A program made the position numbers and the translations under genes. From the IMG/VR virus record IMGVR_UViG_3300036390_000001, positions 1-64,000 of that record: a stretch of 64,000 nucleotides of DNA. One strand, 5' to 3'. Below the pieces are notes generated by a model. That model searched no databases. It was given only the letters and a program-made list of their open reading frames with translations, and was not told the DNA's origin. Of the stretch, positions 8,142 to 49,637 are shown one piece after another; position 1 is the stretch's first letter; each line of letters begins with the position of its first letter. Source of the stretch: a virus.

Positions 8142-8852
8142 ATGTCTAGAACTTTTGTAAGCGGCGGTGGCGACAAGGTAAAACTTTTCGTAGCGCTACT
8201 GCCCCTCGGTGATAGAACCGAGCCACAAGACGTAACTATTACCGCAACAAGCGGTATCACGCTAAACGCAACAACAATTACAGTAAACGCGCTAACAGGA
8301 AGCATCGGCGCCGGCACACCCTTAAAATTTGCTGATGCTGATGATGATTTTGTAATCGTTTATCTAAAAGAAGATGCGCTCGCAGGCGCCACAAGCCTAA
8401 AGATTGAAACAGGCGCCACCGCTTTAACTGGTCCACTCACCTGCACATACAAAGCCAAATTGCGCCTACTTGGTGGTACACAGATGTCCGTAAGTACCAA
8501 CGCGCAGCGCACTGAAACAATGGTATTTGAAGACCCATTAGGCTACGGCGATGGCGTTATTACCAAACAAATGTGGCAGATTCCTTGGACTGCTAACTTG
8601 CTTACAGACGACGAAGCTTACCAGCGCATTTACTACGCAAATATTAATGGTGTATCTGGCCGCGAAGTTTACGTTTGGCAACAAGACCCACCTCCAGCAG
8701 GCTTCAATACAGGCGATGGATTGAAGGGTTCAACCGTAGTAACGAACTTTACTAAGCAAATGAACGCGGACGCGATTGTTACCTTTAACTGCGAATTTAT
8801 GGGACAAGGCGCGCCTATCCTTACCCGTTACGGCAATGTAGTTACCCCGTAG
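8142..8852 (+). CDS. Major tail tube protein candidate
   Basis: A 236-residue beta-rich protein directly before the tail chaperone pair, the standard place for the major tail protein. It contains an ITATSGITLNATTITVNALT-like stretch, AGTPLKF, LKIETGATALTG and a final domain with the pattern of a tail tube monomer. It would form hexameric rings stacked around the tape measure. Family is inferred from order and composition. Confidence 0.6.
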   Translation: MSRTFVSGGGDKVKLFVALLPLGDRTEPQDVTITATSGITLNATTITVNALTGSIGAGTPLKFADADDDFVIVYLKEDALAGATSLKIETGATALTGPLTCTYKAKLRLLGGTQMSVSTNAQRTETMVFEDPLGYGDGVITKQMWQIPWTANLLTDDEAYQRIYYANINGVSGREVYVWQQDPPPAGFNTGDGLKGSTVVTNFTKQMNADAIVTFNCEFMGQGAPILTRYGNVVTP

Positions 8853-8947: not shown

Positions 8948-9580
8948 ATGTTGAAACTTCCCTTCAAGACAACCCCAAGAGAATTTGAAAAAGTAACCGT
9001 CGGCGCCCCAGAAATTGGCGAATTAGAATTTCCCAAGTACGGCGACTTAAGTCCCAATGAGCGCGCTTATTTAAAAACACTATTAAAAGACGCGCCTGAT
9101 TTAAGAGCTTCAGCAGTCAGATTGGCTCGCAAAATTTCCACTAAAAGCGGAACTAAATTAACCGATGTTTATAACGCGCTTGTGAGTGCCGACAGCGAAG
9201 CATTAGGTGAATATTTAGAAGAGTTTGTAGAATTCCAAGCGCTCATGGAAGACAACGCAAAACAGCGCGAGATTGCTCTTGTTACGAGCTTAATTCGTTA
9301 TCGTCTGCACAAAGAATGGACTATCGATGACACTGGCAACCCTGAATTATTGCCACTCAAACTATTAGAAGCAATTGCAGAATTCGCGCGCAACGAAGAA
9401 AATGGCTGGCAAGAAGCGCAGCCTGAACAGCAGGAATTAACAGAGGAAGATTTGGGAAAATCGAGCGAGGAGAACTTGAAGAACCAGACTGGGGAGAAAT
9501 CTTCTGGCGCCTCCGAAAGTATTGGAGCAACGAAACCCGCTTCAACGAAGAAAACTTCGGCAACCAACCAACCTGGTTAA
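8948..9580 (+). CDS. Tail assembly chaperone (lambda gpG-like)
   Basis: A 210-residue, mostly helical protein between the tail tube and tape measure genes, where lambda has G. Residues 1-165 form the folded part; after about 170 the zero frame becomes low-complexity Ser/Thr/Lys/Glu (GEKSSGASESIGATKPASTK). A slippery heptamer GGGAAAA in the correct phase lies at 9454-9460. Part of the ribosomes would shift by -1 there and make a long G-T fusion. Such chaperones coat the tape measure protein during tail assembly. Confidence 0.75.
   Translation: MLKLPFKTTPREFEKVTVGAPEIGELEFPKYGDLSPNERAYLKTLLKDAPDLRASAVRLARKISTKSGTKLTDVYNALVSADSEALGEYLEEFVEFQALMEDNAKQREIALVTSLIRYRLHKEWTIDDTGNPELLPLKLLEAIAEFARNEENGWQEAQPEQQELTEEDLGKSSEENLKNQTGEKSSGASESIGATKPASTKKTSATNQPG
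9454..9460 (+). promoter_or_regulatory. -1 ribosomal frameshift site GGGAAAA
   Basis: The heptamer is read as G GGA AAA in the zero frame (codons ...TTG GGA AAA TCG), the X XXY YYZ arrangement needed for tandem slippage. Lambda G-GT uses the near-identical GGGAAAG. The -1 frame is open from 9427 to the stop at 10134 and is clearly coding before any ATG in that frame. Confidence 0.75.
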
Positions 9581-10134
9581 TACTACAGGCGCTGCACTAC
9601 GGCGCCAAGCTTGCCCAAGAAGAATTACACCTTCAAGAATTGGGCATAGCGACACTAACCGCGTGCTTTGTAAATTCCAACCGCGACCCCAAAAAATCAC
9701 AGCCAGCGAAGCCACAGGAATTTTTCTACTTCTGGAAACAGCCCGAAGACGAAGTTCAAATTCCTCCAATTGTTGCCTCTGTATTTTTTGAAATGCTTGC
9801 GGAGAAACTTGTGCCCGGTTGGGTGGTAGCAATGGCGCCTATTGATAAACTACGCAAAGCCAAACCTCAAAACAGTATTAAGCTTTCAGGAATACGCGCG
9901 CTCAGTGGTGATGGGGCATTTTTACTACTTCCGTCATTTGAAGGCGAGAATATTAAGGCGCGCTTGGCTTTTGTTGAGGATGCTACCTGCACAGAGGTGC
10001 GGGATATTGATAGCGGCGCCGTTTATAAGTTGAAGAGTAAAGAATGTCCGGCGCCTTGCTGGATTATTGATGGTGAGTGGTCTATAGTGGGTAAGGCTTC
10101 CACAGAAGTTGATTTAATGGAAACGAAACAATAG
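9460..10134 (+). CDS. Tail assembly chaperone T-extension, expressed by -1 frameshift
   Basis: About 224 residues fused to the first 171 of the upstream chaperone give a product of about 395 residues, equivalent to lambda gpGT. After the slip the frame reads KIERGELEEPDWGEIFWRLR and then KYWSNETRFN, followed by QPTWLILQALHYGAKLAQEE. This is convincing protein sequence and lies upstream of the first ATG (9640), so independent initiation at that ATG would lose a conserved-looking region. The T part normally recruits tail tube protein to the chaperone-tape measure complex. Confidence 0.7.
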   Translation: MERGELEEPDWGEIFWRLRKYWSNETRFNEENFGNQPTWLILQALHYGAKLAQEELHLQELGIATLTACFVNSNRDPKKSQPAKPQEFFYFWKQPEDEVQIPPIVASVFFEMLAEKLVPGWVVAMAPIDKLRKAKPQNSIKLSGIRALSGDGAFLLLPSFEGENIKARLAFVEDATCTEVRDIDSGAVYKLKSKECPAPCWIIDGEWSIVGKASTEVDLMETKQ

Positions 10135-10144
10135 ATATAACGAC

Positions 10145-10182
10145 AAAAAGGTGCCTAGTAGATGCAGGCACCTTTTTGTTTT
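10145..10182 (+). terminator. Strong intrinsic terminator
   Basis: Twelve-base-pair stem (AAAAAGGTGCCT/AGGCACCTTTTT) with a 9-nt loop, then GTTTTG. It ends the head-tail operon 10 nt after the frameshifted chaperone and separates it from the tape measure gene. Confidence 0.9.
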
Positions 10183-10419
10183 GAACTATTAATCGCCTAC
10201 TGGCATCACAGGTAAATTAAAAGAGCGATTGAAGTCTAAACTTTAAACTTTAAAACTGCTCAACACTTTGCAGCAATCAAAGGTTGTTTTTAAATATATA
10301 TCGGTGCCGCGTCCACTTGTAGGGCGCTTTAAGTTTTCTTCACGAACAGTTAAAACCACCTTCTGATAAGAAGGTATTCGCCATAGGAACTCTAAACCCG
10401 ACGCAAGTAGTGGCTGGGT
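10183..10419 (+). other. Leader of the tape measure gene
   Basis: About 237 nt without a gene. It holds one copy of the dispersed palindrome (10358-10375, ACCTTCTGATAAGAAGGT) and AT-rich stretches that could hold a promoter, but no convincing -35/-10 pair. Because a strong terminator precedes it, the tape measure gene needs either its own promoter here or read-through. Confidence 0.5.
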
Positions 10420-13400
10420 ATGGAAGTCGGGTCAGTTTCAATTCAACTAGATTTAGAGCGCGCGGGATTTGACCGAGACATATCCTCAGTCGAGCGCACA
10501 GCCATTGACCCAATCAAAGCGCCGCTTAAGTTAGAGAAAGGGGAGTTTGATAGACAGGTCAAGGGTATTGGCGATTTAATCAAACCCATAGTAGCCCCCC
10601 TCGATGCTGACACCAAAGGATTGCAGCGTCAGTTATCAGGCTTAAAGCTAGATGCAATGCCCGTCCAGCTAACTCCAGACTTACAAGCTTTTAATCGCCA
10701 AATACAGAGCTACAAGGCGCCAGAAGTAACCGTAAAGCTCAAAACTGACGCTTCAGAGATTAATAAAATATCTGACCAAATCACTACAGAAGTTAAAACC
10801 AAAGTAGAAGCGAAAATCAGCGTTGACGGCGGCACTAGTGGCGGTTTTAGCCCTGCGAGCATGGAAGGCGCCATTGCCAAGGGAATGCAGGGAGCGATGG
10901 AGTCTCAAGGTAGAAGCTCAAAAGCTGATTCAATGGGTCAGCAGTTTACAGACTTCATGCTATCCCCTCTCAATGCTGCCTACAAGGGATTAAAAACTGT
11001 TGTTAGCGGCGCCTTAGAAAATGTTGGTAAATCTTTTAGCGACTCGTTTGGTAAATCATTAGCGCAAGGGCTGGACAAAGATTTTGGCAGCGTGTTACAA
11101 AAAGCAGGTGCCAAGGTCGGAGAATCCTTCGGCTTTTTGGGCAAGGAAATAACCAGCAAAACCAAATACAAAGATTCTTTAAATAACGATACTAAAGGCA
11201 GCTTTACTGAACTACAGCAAGACTTAAAGCCAATTGTTACCGACATCAATCAAGTAGCATCAGCATTTAAAAAAGTTGGCTTAGATATTGGTGGTTTTGC
11301 TTCCCACATTCAAAATGCTTCTAATTCGGCACTGTCTTTAATTTCCGCATTCACTAAATTAGAAACCATTGTTTCTAAATCGTCTCTTCAACAAACGAAG
11401 TCATCAGCTACAACAGCAACACAAGGCTTTTTAACAGGCGACATTAAAAATCTCACTACAATACAAGCGCGCGGACAAGTTGACGGCGCCAGGAAGCAAC
11501 TAGAATCTCAACTTAACGAGTTAAAATCTTTACCTCAAACATCGGAAACTAGAGGCAAAGTAGCAGAGCTAATTAATCAAATATCTGAGCTTGAGCAGAA
11601 AATTGCCAATGATATTAAAAACTCTGCAATCCCTGAATCGGTACGCAGGTCGCTAGGGAAATTAAAAGGCGCCGGAGGTAAGCTCAGTGAACTTAAGACA
11701 GAAGCCGAAAAAATGCGCTTGTCGATGGGTTCACCAACGGCGCAGCGTGATGAGTCGCAAGTTAAAGCTAGACCTAGTACGCAAAATTTAAGCTTGTACA
11801 GAGCGCAAAGTCTGCCACAGGGAGGACTCCCCGTGGCGAGCTTTGCGTCTGGTAATAGTGGCAACCGTGACAGCCTCATGGGTATTGAGCAAGAAGCAAA
11901 ACTTGCTCAAGCTAATTTCAAGCGCATTTTTAAGCAGGTTGCAAAACTCTCAGGAATGCCGTCCGAGCAATCCAAAAATGCAAACCTAGGACTGGAATTT
12001 AAAGATTTAGGCGAAGGCGTTAAAGGTGCCTATAATGCCAGAAACAACAGCGTTAGTTTAGCCAATGGCTTACAAAGTAAGCTTGCACAAGGGATTTTAA
12101 GTAAAGACGAGTTAAATACTTTAATTCATGAAATCCGTCACGCATTACAGATTGATTTTGGGAACACGCGCGTTACAGGAATAGCAACAGGTAATCAGCG
12201 AGCAGGTGTCAAGCTACAAGCCAAGGCGCCTGATAGCGTTAAAAAAGATGTTGATGCTTCGGTCGAAGAGTATCGACAAGCATTTAAGCAAGAGTTTGGC
12301 AAAGAACCACCACAGAAACTATTAGATACAATTCGCAAACTAGAAACTGATGCTTATGCATTTGCAGAAAAAGCGATATTCCAAATATCTCAAAACTTAG
12401 CTAAAACGCTTAAGCTTAATCCTGATAAACCAGCGCAAGCAGTTAGACCATCGCGATTACCAACTCCTCCACCTCCACCGCCAGAACTTGCAATCAATAG
12501 AAGACCTAGGGCGTCCACGTTACCTACTCCCCCTCCCCCTCCAGATTTTAAACTGCCTTTTGAATCTTCATCTAATCCGGCTCGTCGGGAACCAGAGGAA
12601 TTAAAGAAAACCCTCAGATCAAACTTGCTTCGTATGAATGCAATTGCCGAACGCATTCAACAAGAGCAGCAAGAAGAATTTGGGCAATCTTACGGCATAA
12701 AAACAATAAAAGGACTGCTCAACAATGGACAAATTCCCGACGCTGAATACAAAGCTTTAAAACGTAGCCAAGCGCAAGCAGCACAGGAATACAAAGGCGC
12801 AATTCAAGGTGGTTACAAGCCTTTTGTTCGCTCAACGGCGATACCTATACCACCGCCACCACCAGCAATACCGCCACGTGCGCGAGAATCTATTCGACCT
12901 GAACTAGAAATTCAAAATTTACAAAATACTACCAATCAAGCAACAAAGGCATGGTGGAATGGTACTACAAACCAACTTCGCCAAATTGGTAAAGACATTA
13001 ATCAAAGCTTTAATCCTAAAGTTTCTGCAAGCTCTATTAAGCTCGACAACATTAAAGCTGAAATCGAAAAAAATCAACAGTACATGGCGAAAGCCATTTC
13101 TGACCTCCAGCAAAAACTAATAGCTGAAGGTATGAATGTTACACGCGCTAACGTCGCTAAAATGCTGCGTAGTGGACAATATTATGACCCACAATTTAAT
13201 ACTGCACAAGCGCGCACTAAAGAACTTCAATTTACACGCGCGGATATTCAAAAAGGCAATCAACCCAGCATCGTTGATGGTTCTACCGGGCAGAAGCGCC
13301 TAGTAGCAGCAAACGACCCAATATTTAAAAAGCTAGCAGATACTCAGCGCAAGCTTGACGATTCTGCTCGTAAGGCGCAAGCAGAAATACTAAAAGAGAC

Positions 13401-42589: not shown

Positions 42590-43129
42590 TCAGTCTATTT
42601 CTAGTCCATATTTTCGGCGCCACTCTTCAGCCCAAAGGAAGTCAATGCCAATTTCGTTAGCACAATCTTTATCTTCGGGGCGGTCGCCAACCATTAGCCT
42701 TCCTGTTACTTCGCGTTCCCCATCTTCTATAAATAGTTTTGCAAGCTCAAGCATCCCGGAATGAGGCTTGCGGTATAGCCCTATTAACTGGGGTTCTCTT
42801 GTTCCTATCTCGTGGAATTCGCTTCTAGTAACGTGCCAGCACTCTTCTCCCGCAAAGTCCGGGCAAAAGTAAATTTCTTGCAATTCAGGAAACAAGCTGA
42901 GTGTATAAAGCATTTCTTGAGACGCCGATGCAAGAGTCTTGTATCCGCTTTTGATGCCTGCTTGATTTGATATTCCTACACAATGAGCGCCGTTATCGGC
43001 AAAGTGTTTTAGCGCTTTGTCTGCACCTTGGATTATCTTGACATCGTGCGGATGCTTCTTAAACGTGGCGCCGCTTATAGTTTCAGTTAGCGTGCCATCA
43101 ATATCAACAAACAAAATTCTGCCTTCCAA
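42590..43129 (-). CDS. HAD-family phosphatase
   Basis: A 179-residue HAD hydrolase. The motifs are in order: I, FVDIDGTLTE (Asp9/Asp11); II, CVGISNQAGI (Ser/Asn); III, YRKPHSGML (Lys); IV, MVGDRPEDKDCA (Asp pair). It is close to the HAD-IIIA group including polynucleotide 3'-phosphatase and histidinol-phosphatase-like enzymes. A DNA or RNA end repair function (3'-phosphate removal) fits a phage, but the substrate cannot be told from sequence. Confidence 0.8.
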   Translation of the reverse strand: MEGRILFVDIDGTLTETISGATFKKHPHDVKIIQGADKALKHFADNGAHCVGISNQAGIKSGYKTLASASQEMLYTLSLFPELQEIYFCPDFAGEECWHVTRSEFHEIGTREPQLIGLYRKPHSGMLELAKLFIEDGEREVTGRLMVGDRPEDKDCANEIGIDFLWAEEWRRKYGLEID

Positions 43130-47066: not shown

Positions 47067-47915
47067 ATGACACCACATCTTAACGCCGCGCTTGCAAAAG
47101 CCAAGCTAGAATTTCCTCAGATATTAGCTAACCGTAGAGTTAAAATACCGACTAAATCAGGTCGAGAAATTTCTTTTACCTATGCTGAATTGGAAGAAAT
47201 AGCAGAAGCAGTAACGCCAGTATTAAGCGCGAATGATTTGTCTTTGTCTTCTCAAATGCGCTATTTAGAGAATGGCAAATTTGTCCTCGCTACTGCGCTT
47301 CGTCATGGGTCGGGAGAGTTTATAGAATCCTTCTTTCCATTGCCTGAATCGGTTGGCGACGCCAAGGAACTAGGGATTCAAATCAGTTATGGGCGCCGTT
47401 ACAACGCATTATGCTTACTAGAGATTAGTGTGGTTGAGCCAAGTAATGAGCAGCAATGGCAAGAAAAGAAGCGCAAGATAGCTGGTGAACTTAGACAGGA
47501 AGTTGAGCAGGCGCCGCAGTTATCCGCGAAGCCCAAGAGAGAAAATGGAGGATTGCTTGAGGCTGTTTCAGGAGTGGCGCCTGTTACCCCAAAGCCCTCG
47601 ACTAAGCAAAATGACCGTGTTAGGGCTGTTTGTGTTCAGATAAACTACCCTATGGAACTCGCGCGCGAGTGGTTGGCTAAATTTAGTCTAAAATCATTTG
47701 ACCAGTTACCGTTGCAGGCTGTTGACGACTATATCAAAAACATATGCGCTGCTTGGGCAAGTCAAAACGGCATGAACGAACACCATGCCAAGCGCAGTTA
47801 TGAAAAGCGCGTGGTTGGTCAACCTGACGAAATCAAGGCAATTGCTAGCTGGATGGAGTACGTAAGCTCTATTAATCTGGATGAGAAAGACTTAGTGGAG
47901 GCGCCTGCATCATGA
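47067..47915 (+). CDS. erf: ERF-family single-strand annealing recombinase
   Basis: A 282-residue protein. The ERF core (about 1-135) is clear: LNAALAKAKLEFPQILANRR, FTYAELEEIAEAVTPVLSAN, LRHGSGEFIESFFPLPE and QISYGRRYNALCLLEISVV. ERF proteins form rings on single-stranded DNA and anneal it during phage recombination and circularisation. A linker leads to a C-terminal DNA-binding helical domain (about 185-275). The next gene overlaps by 4 nt. Confidence 0.88.
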   Translation: MTPHLNAALAKAKLEFPQILANRRVKIPTKSGREISFTYAELEEIAEAVTPVLSANDLSLSSQMRYLENGKFVLATALRHGSGEFIESFFPLPESVGDAKELGIQISYGRRYNALCLLEISVVEPSNEQQWQEKKRKIAGELRQEVEQAPQLSAKPKRENGGLLEAVSGVAPVTPKPSTKQNDRVRAVCVQINYPMELAREWLAKFSLKSFDQLPLQAVDDYIKNICAAWASQNGMNEHHAKRSYEKRVVGQPDEIKAIASWMEYVSSINLDEKDLVEAPAS

Positions 47916-48385
47916 AAATCATCACTCTTCATCAGCCTTGGGCGCATCTCATCGCCATAGGTTACAAACACTACGAAACGCGCTCTTGGCACACCAAATA
48001 TAGAGGTGCCTTGGCTATCCACTCAGCCAAGCGCCCGGTTTCACTTGAAGAGCTAGCGCGTATTTCTAATGAGAGCGCTGGAACTTTAGATTTAAATTTT
48101 CTGACAGCGCTTAACTACGAATACGGAAAGATTGTCGTCGTTGCCGAGTTGACTGATTGTCTTGCAATGGTTGATAAGCATCATCCTGGGCGCCTTGACT
48201 CAACGATTAAAGTCTCCTCTGTTTCAGCGCTAGAAAAAGCCTGTGGAGATTGGCGCGCTGGGCGTTATGCTTGGGAGCTAAAGGATATCAAGAAGCTTGA
48301 TGCGCCGATTCCTTATAAAGGGCGCCAGGGCTTGATGAATGTTGATGGCGCCACTGCTGCATTGCTGTCAAAGTCTTGCGGGTGA
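47912..48385 (+). CDS. ASCH-domain protein
   Basis: A 157-residue protein with an ASCH/PUA-like fold: MKIITLHQPWAHLIAIGYKH, YETRSWHTKYRGALAIHSAK, then VVVAELTDCLAMV. The HQPWA and ETRSW blocks are family signatures. ASCH proteins bind RNA or act as ribonucleases or amidohydrolases; this subgroup is common in phages. It overlaps the erf gene by 4 nt, so the two are co-translated. Confidence 0.85.
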   Translation: MKIITLHQPWAHLIAIGYKHYETRSWHTKYRGALAIHSAKRPVSLEELARISNESAGTLDLNFLTALNYEYGKIVVVAELTDCLAMVDKHHPGRLDSTIKVSSVSALEKACGDWRAGRYAWELKDIKKLDAPIPYKGRQGLMNVDGATAALLSKSCG

Positions 48386-48435
48386 AGCTTTACCCGCAGA
48401 GCTTTGACTGGAAGAAGAGTATTCCAGGCGCCTTG

Positions 48436-48459
48436 TATAATTCAAATTAAATTAAGGAG
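48436..48459 (+). promoter_or_regulatory. -10 box and ribosome site for csx3
   Basis: A perfect TATAAT (48436-48441) and ideal AAGGAG (48454-48459) precede the csx3 ATG at 48468. No convincing -35 lies 17 nt upstream. With the terminator after csx3 this makes a one-gene transcription unit. Confidence 0.5.
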
Positions 48460-48467
48460 CAACAAAG

Positions 48468-48770
48468 ATGACTACTTATAACGTAAATTTTGACGAATCG
48501 ACTTCAGTTTTAACAATAGGCTTTGGCGAACCAGCTAATAACGACCAAATTGTTAAAGATGCCGTTGCAGGAATCAAGCAAATTAAAGAACAGTTGCATG
48601 GCGCGGTTCTTAAAGTCAATGGCGCCGCATCCCTTCCCGTTGGCTTTGCTCTTTCCGCTGAATTGGCGCACGTTGTCAAAGCAATTGCGGTGTTCGACCC
48701 AAAACTAAAGCAGTATGTTGTGGCTGTAACTCATGACCCTAGTTACTCAATTGGCGCCTTGATTGACTAA
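48468..48770 (+). CDS. csx3: Csx3 ring nuclease
   Basis: A 100-residue protein of the Csx3 family, best recognised by AVLKVNGAASLPVGFALSAE, LAHVVKAIAVFDPKLKQYVV and THDPSYSIGALID. Csx3 is reported to degrade cyclic tetra-adenylate, the second messenger of type III CRISPR. His68 and Asp77 are nine residues apart, as are H60 and D69 in Archaeoglobus Csx3 (from memory). No other cas gene is in the window. In a phage it would switch off CRISPR signalling. It stands alone between a -10 box and a strong terminator. Confidence 0.85.
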   Translation: MTTYNVNFDESTSVLTIGFGEPANNDQIVKDAVAGIKQIKEQLHGAVLKVNGAASLPVGFALSAELAHVVKAIAVFDPKLKQYVVAVTHDPSYSIGALID

Positions 48771-48803
48771 GTAAAGCGCCTGTTCAGTTAGTAAAACAAA
48801 TTC

Positions 48804-48846
48804 AAAAGGGATTGAAACCGCATTAAAATACTTTCAATCCCTTTTT
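48804..48846 (+). terminator. Terminator resembling a CRISPR repeat end
   Basis: Fourteen-base-pair perfect stem AAAAGGGATTGAAA/TTTCAATCCCTTTT with a 14-nt loop and T-run. It ends the csx3 transcript. The 5' arm with following base, AGGGATTGAAAC, equals the 3' end of many cyanobacterial CRISPR repeats. Confidence 0.85.
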
Positions 48847-48854
48847 AGTGAACT

Positions 48855-49202
48855 ATGGATAGCAAAATTTTTTATCGTATTGAAGAGTTAGCGCTATTGA
48901 TTGAAAAATTCCGCGCGCTTGATGGCAAAGACCAAGAGTGGTTGCGCGATTTATTCAAAGGCGACCGCACGATTATCTCATGTTTAGAAATTCTTGATTT
49001 AATTGAGAATAAATCTTTGAGTTATTACGAATTAGCGAATATCATGGGATGCTCGCCGGAAACGGTTAAGCAGAAGCTCAATGCCATGATATCTGGGGGA
49101 ATTGCTATAAATCAATCGCGCAGGAAGTACAAGGCGCCGCGCGGTGGCAGACCAAGAAAGCTTTGTAATAAACCTTCGGATACGAAGGTGAGTGTTTTAT
49201 AG
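48855..49202 (+). CDS. HTH protein with palindrome-derived tail
   Basis: A 115-residue protein. Residues about 50-95 (LSYYELANIMGCSPETVKQK) form an HTH, probably winged. The N-terminal part is a charged helix. The last residues (KPSDTKVSVL) come from an in-frame dispersed palindrome (49172-49189) next to the stop. It is a likely transcription regulator of this early region. Confidence 0.6.
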   Translation: MDSKIFYRIEELALLIEKFRALDGKDQEWLRDLFKGDRTIISCLEILDLIENKSLSYYELANIMGCSPETVKQKLNAMISGGIAINQSRRKYKAPRGGRPRKLCNKPSDTKVSVL

Positions 49203-49301
49203 CAAACCTGAATAATATAAGCGCAAGCGCTGAAACCCTTGTAACTGCGTAGTTAAAGTGTTTTAGCACTAATTTTTGTTTGGGATGCGGGCGCCGTTGT
49301 T

Positions 49302-49637
49302 CTAATTTTGATTATTAATACCTTCCCAGTCTTTGCAAAATATTCCAGGCGCGCCTTCTGGGTGTACCGCGCAGTTAATGCCGCATTGTCCGTGGTAAAA
49401 TTTGCAACCAATACAGGCGCGCGGTTTTATCATTGAGCGCGGTGAGTCGAACTCTTCTATCAGTATTTCCAAGAGGGAGAAGCAGCCACCAACGATTAGG
49501 CAGGCGCCTCCAATAGACAGCGTGCTTACAGCGAGGTCGCGCTTAAAGTTGCTGTTTGGTAGTAGTAAGGAGATGGCGCCGATTATTGTAATTGCGGCGC
49601 CGAACCATGTCATTTTTGTAGTGGGTTCTTTGTACAT
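49302..49637 (-). CDS. Small two-TM membrane protein with Cys-rich tail
   Basis: A 111-residue protein with two hydrophobic segments (about 10-28, TWFGAAITIIGAISLLLP; about 38-60, LSIGGACLIVGGCFSLLEIL). A C-terminal domain has ACIGCKFYHGQCGINCAVHP followed by FCKDW, six cysteines. It could be a metal-binding membrane protein. Last gene downstream of the membrane-ATPase operon. Confidence 0.55.
   Translation of the reverse strand: MYKEPTTKMTWFGAAITIIGAISLLLPNSNFKRDLAVSTLSIGGACLIVGGCFSLLEILIEEFDSPRSMIKPRACIGCKFYHGQCGINCAVHPEGAPGIFCKDWEGINNQN

Follow-up and report, generated by a model that had tools for sequence, protein, structure and literature searches.

Bacteria normally use Csx3 to break down the alarm molecule through which type III CRISPR immunity signals, and the locus described here raises the question of what such a gene does by itself on a phage. 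The window, that is, the whole 64,000-nucleotide stretch of DNA analyzed, corresponds to positions 1-64000 of a 74,115-bp contig, C13, from a genome of 91 contigs and 8.66 Mb. The two ends of C13 have 127 identical bases in common, which closes the contig into a 73,988-bp circle. It encodes a portal, a scaffold, a major head protein and a tape measure together with an antirepressor, an integrase-like protein, a replication initiator, Erf, lysozyme and ParB; judged by its sequence, the element is a complete circular temperate tailed phage or phage-plasmid, with a G+C content of 44% versus ~38% in sampled host stretches. The host is probably a filamentous Nostocaceae-type cyanobacterium, an assignment based in part on relatives of the window Csx3 that are encoded on named Nostoc plasmids. 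Among the PADLOC matches listed for the 97 ORFs of the 74-kb contig (25 of the 57 matched families), Csx3 is the only cas family, the remainder being methyltransferases. The original description of a stand-alone phage csx3, located outside a CRISPR locus and with no other cas genes on the element, therefore agrees with the listed matches. The gene, its signals and its neighbors are as follows:

47067..47915, + strand: Erf-like single-strand annealing protein, also in the G002 prophage (57%)
47912..48385, + strand: ASCH-domain gene, left neighbor of csx3, also in the G002 prophage (64%)
48386..49301, no strand: segment with csx3 and the HTH gene, absent from the G002 prophage (comparison with L105)
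48436..48441, + strand: TATAAT, a -10-like box 5′ of csx3 (sequence)
48454..48459, + strand: ribosome-binding site AAGGAG 5′ of csx3 (sequence)
48468..48770, + strand: csx3, an ORF of 100 aa with an ATG start (ORF listing and sequence)
48804..48850, + strand: 14-bp perfect hairpin and T-run, a probable terminator (sequence folding)
48855..49202, + strand: HTH protein of 115 aa, 3′ of the hairpin (HTH models, below cut-offs)
49302..49637, - strand: small membrane-protein gene, right neighbor of the csx3 and HTH segment, also in the G002 prophage

The first-pass annotation had given the exact coordinates of csx3, and its family call lies far above chance. It had also credited the gene with a -10 box and a terminator of its own. 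The TATAAT is indeed present, but a promoter-pair scan found no -35 partner at 16-18 nt spacing; the terminator is a probable one, a hairpin (48804-48845, -15.0 kcal/mol, with a 14-nt loop) whose perfect 14-bp stem runs into TTTTT. In G002, a genome from the same genus, the flanking genes recur in a prophage-like region (locus L105), with identities to the element of 56% for the integrase, 57% for Erf, 64% for the ASCH protein, 70% for the lysozyme and 80% for one further gene. There, a gap of 114 bp separates the ASCH and membrane-protein genes, whereas csx3 and the HTH gene stand between them in the window, and csx3 is therefore accessory cargo. On this comparison it would either have been gained on the element at 48386-49301 or lost in the G002 prophage. 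The 115-aa HTH protein is a possible regulator, aca-like in position only; relatives were found in only three of the other 99 genomes searched and in none of the INPHARED records, and an acr-aca pair of csx3 and the HTH gene was rejected on that account.

Membership in the Csx3 sequence family is indicated by several comparisons. The window protein scores 24.6 bits against the PF09620 profile (cut-off 21), 61.8 and 45.4 bits against the PADLOC models for Csx3-AAA and Csx3, respectively, and, aligned over its full length, shares 45-54% identity with the short Csx3s of cyanobacteria (27 proteins) and with one Csx3 from Entotheonella. It falls below the cut-off of the narrow Crn3 equivalog model NCBIfam TIGR02579 (18.8 versus 55.4 bits). 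When its AlphaFold model (pLDDT 80) was compared with known structures by VIA-align, five entries for AfCsx3, the Crn3/Csx3 ring nuclease of A. fulgidus (AF1864; PDB 3WZG, 6YUD), came out on top (Z 7.5-8.2, rmsd 2.9, 88-91 residues), ahead of cA4-bound Cat1 (Z 6.9); Foldseek alone returned nothing at E<0.001 for the same model, with AfCsx3 absent from the top rows. The fold is thus held in common with AfCsx3 (Z 8.2 over 90 residues), although the two proteins are only 18% identical and AfCsx3 belongs to a CRISPR locus, whereas the window protein is phage-borne.

The essential residues of AfCsx3 are H60 and D69; R71 and H80 are important, and H57 and H60 are likely Mn ligands that have been described as absolutely conserved (PMC7371418). 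Alignment places H68, D77, K79 and H89 of the window Csx3 opposite H60, D69, R71 and H80, and the lysine, a conservative replacement for Arg71, occurs in all 28 cellular short relatives. The first-pass annotation had pointed to His68 and Asp77 as having the AfCsx3 spacing; both are present nine residues apart, exactly as in AfCsx3, but the loss of the companion histidine was overlooked. Residue 64, in the place of AfCsx3 H57, is alanine, whereas both histidine places are occupied by His in 28/28 cellular short relatives, so that AELAH stands where the cyanobacterial proteins have an H(K/R)xxH motif; the loop following the first long helix is also shorter than theirs. Because of a one-residue length difference between the helix and D69, the second histidine could correspond to either H60 or H61 of AfCsx3; under either register, the first is absent. 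Most family-invariant positions (G52, S55, H68, D77, K79 and H89) are nevertheless kept. With A64 at the presumed metal site, fast catalysis is less certain, and since one conserved metal-site histidine is missing and cA4 cleavage is only predicted, to call the protein a proven Crn3 ring nuclease would go too far, as would calling it a proven anti-CRISPR.

In cyanobacterial CRISPR neighborhoods, the short Csx3 is often located upstream of a Csx3-AAA gene (L007, L010, L013, L016, L023, L030 and others), a setting that differs from that of the window gene, with neither Csx3-AAA nor Cas10 as a neighbor. Among AAA-fused copies, the second histidine is lost in 6/11 while the aspartate is kept in all. 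The pairing of short Csx3 with Csx3-AAA, along with this loss, suggests hetero-filaments with split half-sites.

The window gene is not the only viral csx3. Relatives are encoded by 11 IMG/VR records, ten found in a scan with an alignment as the query and one added by a second scan; a scan with the single window protein returned none. They comprise nine intact lone copies, one divergent copy (L089) and one truncated remnant (L088). Of the intact copies, three (L080, L081 and L082) belong to one type and are nearly alike, while L083-L087 and L091 represent further types, and these six keep both metal-site histidines. The flanking genes encode portal proteins, DNA primases, DnaB-type helicases and DarB-like antirestriction proteins. 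No type III RAMP genes were found in the nine records searched whole, which may themselves be fragments, and ARAGORN found no tRNA genes next to the viral csx3 genes. The 50,697 INPHARED records yielded no relatives with the window, L083 and L086 proteins as queries, which agrees with a published survey of 28,114 phages that lists AcrIII-1, Csx20 and Csx16 but no Crn3 (PMC12409355). No report of a phage Csx3 was found in a literature search that covered few subscription papers; as far as that literature goes, Csx3 has so far been described only with CRISPR loci.

Several of these viral loci have features of their own. The csx3 frame of L084 continues into an ORF of 226 aa (10001-10681), possibly a fusion of Csx3 with a further domain. 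On the 155-kb viral contig L091, the gene for a transmembrane-type SAVED-domain protein (8251-8742, + strand) lies 1.3 kb upstream of csx3 (10001-10285, + strand), placing two cyclic-oligonucleotide-binding folds close together on one virus. L080 and L081 carry a second, AfCsx3-like gene (9484-9897, - strand, in L080) back to back with csx3, scoring 25 bits to Csx3-AAA and 23 to Csx3, and the two proteins might have a shared active site.

Phylogeny, proposed by the first-pass annotation as a check, gave a mixed answer. In a tree of 48 rows, with cellular Csx3s almost all from Cyanobacteria and support read against a 95/80 level (UFB/aLRT), nine phage copies fell on one side of a branch with 92/87, below that level. 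The window copy stood next to L084 (92/90), both on long branches, and the viral group was lost when L084, L085 and L087 were left out. A constrained grouping of the window copy with short Csx3 of hosts was not rejected (p-AU 0.23). The viral group thus appears with weak support and dissolves without its long-branch rows; a robust viral csx3 clade was rejected, and the origin of the window gene is compatible with either a single capture or repeated ones.

Whether a viral Csx3 would have anything to act upon depends on the host, and here the check for a type III system with an effector came out positive. The one type III locus found in the host genome (G000), on contig C80, is of type III-D. 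It encodes a Cas10d (PADLOC, 508 bits) with an intact cyclase motif, YGGDD being visible in the sequence, as well as Csx10, Csx19, a two-part Csx7-like RAMP protein, TIGR03986 and TIGR03985. Adjoining Cas10 is a 430-aa CARF-PDDEXK protein (CARF4-PDDEXK, 444 bits) of the Card1/Can2 type, related to DUF1887 structures and to Can2 (7bdv), and by analogy with those relatives the host's messenger would be cA4. A search of the genome's contigs found no second Csx3, and a weak match on C65 was rejected because it looks like an alcohol dehydrogenase.

Taken with these host genes, the window Csx3 is plausibly an anti-type-III ring nuclease, a reading that now has more behind it than the sequence by itself could give. 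Once the host III-D complex finds phage RNA, its Cas10 would make cyclic oligoadenylate, the signal that activates the CARF-PDDEXK nuclease. Dimers of Csx3 would then enclose cA4 between their D77 and H68 faces, taking it away by both cleavage and binding; with A64 in the place of a metal-site histidine, the cleavage may be slow. With cA4 gone, the nuclease would stay off. A probability of roughly 60% is assigned to such removal of cA4 during infection or lysogeny, with cA4 binding, cleavage, expression and a benefit to the phage all predicted. Since similar lone copies occur in other viral genomes, viruses probably use lone csx3 to silence the type III alarm. The cA4 cleavage rate of AfCsx3 is nearer that of AcrIII-1 than that of Crn1 (PMC7371418). 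Against the reading stand A64, the missed TIGR02579 cut-off, a report in PMC9676260 that deleting csx3 left the plasmid defence of Synechocystis unchanged, and a published dispute over whether native AcrIII-1 works as an anti-CRISPR at all (Nature 640 E8, ref. 35 of PMC12751052). A further adverse point is the lack of a spacer match: for the 62 spacers of four host arrays, no match to the element was longer than chance would give (best 17 nt), and there is therefore no sign that the host targets it; self-targeting was rejected on the same result.

The alternative that survives best, though it seems unlikely, is that the protein sequesters cA4 in a filament of dimers while hardly cleaving it, the metal site being incomplete. 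Besides A64 in the place of H57, this would fit the L080/L081-type Csx3, in which neither metal-site histidine is present yet the equivalents of D77, K79 and H89 are kept, and the H60A variant of AfCsx3, which retains cA4 binding and seems to assemble into fibres (PMC7371418). On the other hand, H68 is retained in the window Csx3, and the H57A change only reduced RNA cleavage by AfCsx3 (PMC7371418, citing Yan 2015). Type III systems also produce much messenger (PMC13148439), and sponging may therefore be fruitless.

It is less probable still that the gene serves the carrier cell and is no weapon of attack, acting during lysogeny as an off-switch that limits chronic or accidental III-D activation. 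The host III-D locus lacks a Csx3, and the cell has no copy but the element's; circular and equipped with ParB and an integrase, the element looks stably maintained, and the absence of matching host spacers would suit such an arrangement. Lone csx3 genes, however, also occur on large viral contigs that may not be lysogenic. That csx3 is a functionless passenger or a decaying gene is very improbable, given an intact ORF with a good ribosome site and most family-invariant positions kept, despite the lost histidine, the long branch of the window copy and the truncated remnant in another cyanophage-like contig, L088. The remnant itself (~10001-10093) lies behind a methyltransferase gene in a 74-kb contig.

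If cA4 removal is the correct reading, two known viral systems invite comparison. AcrIII-1 (DUF1874) would have the same role, viral removal of cA4, with an unrelated fold and no homology to Csx3. AcrIII-2, a viral SAVED ring nuclease, is likewise a host cOA-handling domain turned stand-alone viral protein, but one of a different fold and with activity demonstrated in vitro, whereas that of the window Csx3 is predicted. It is tentatively suggested, at somewhat less than even odds, that Csx3 forms a further recurring viral anti-type-III class beside these two, found in otherwise different phages and ranging from complete enzymes to His-less sponges or half-site partners. A metal-dependent, filament-forming enzyme family would thereby join the phage arsenal against cOA signalling, and the His-altered viral copies would constitute natural separation-of-function variants. 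The element and a host III-D locus with a Card1/Can2-like nuclease, together in one cell, offer a defined test system.

The hairpin downstream of csx3 has a further property, noticed post hoc. Its 5′ arm plus the next base reads AAGGGATTGAAAC, exactly the sequence with which the host CRISPR repeats finish at their 3′ side, the ATTGAAAC tag included; the arrays with these repeats are on contigs other than C80, and elsewhere in the host genome AAGGGATTGAAAC was seen only in CRISPR arrays or repeat-like sequences. For its first 12 bases, ~0.5 matches with at most one mismatch are expected in the window, and the two exact matches found are the two arms of the hairpin. The likeness may have arisen by chance within a terminator, be left over from a CRISPR locus or serve to mimic the repeat. 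The hairpin is missing beside other viral csx3 genes and was rejected as a conserved companion. Two identical solitary CRISPR-repeat-like sequences ending AATCCCTGTAAGGGATTGAAAC lie outside arrays on host contig C10 (~39983 and 55376).

Lastly, GCGATCGC and CTGCAG are absent and GATC is nearly absent from both the element and the host contigs, while GGCGCC is very frequent, with 3.7 copies per kb on the element and, over most host stretches, about 2. The element (42590-43129, - strand) and the L084 viral contig (8634-9293) also have in common a HAD/polynucleotide-phosphatase-like gene, at 38% identity.
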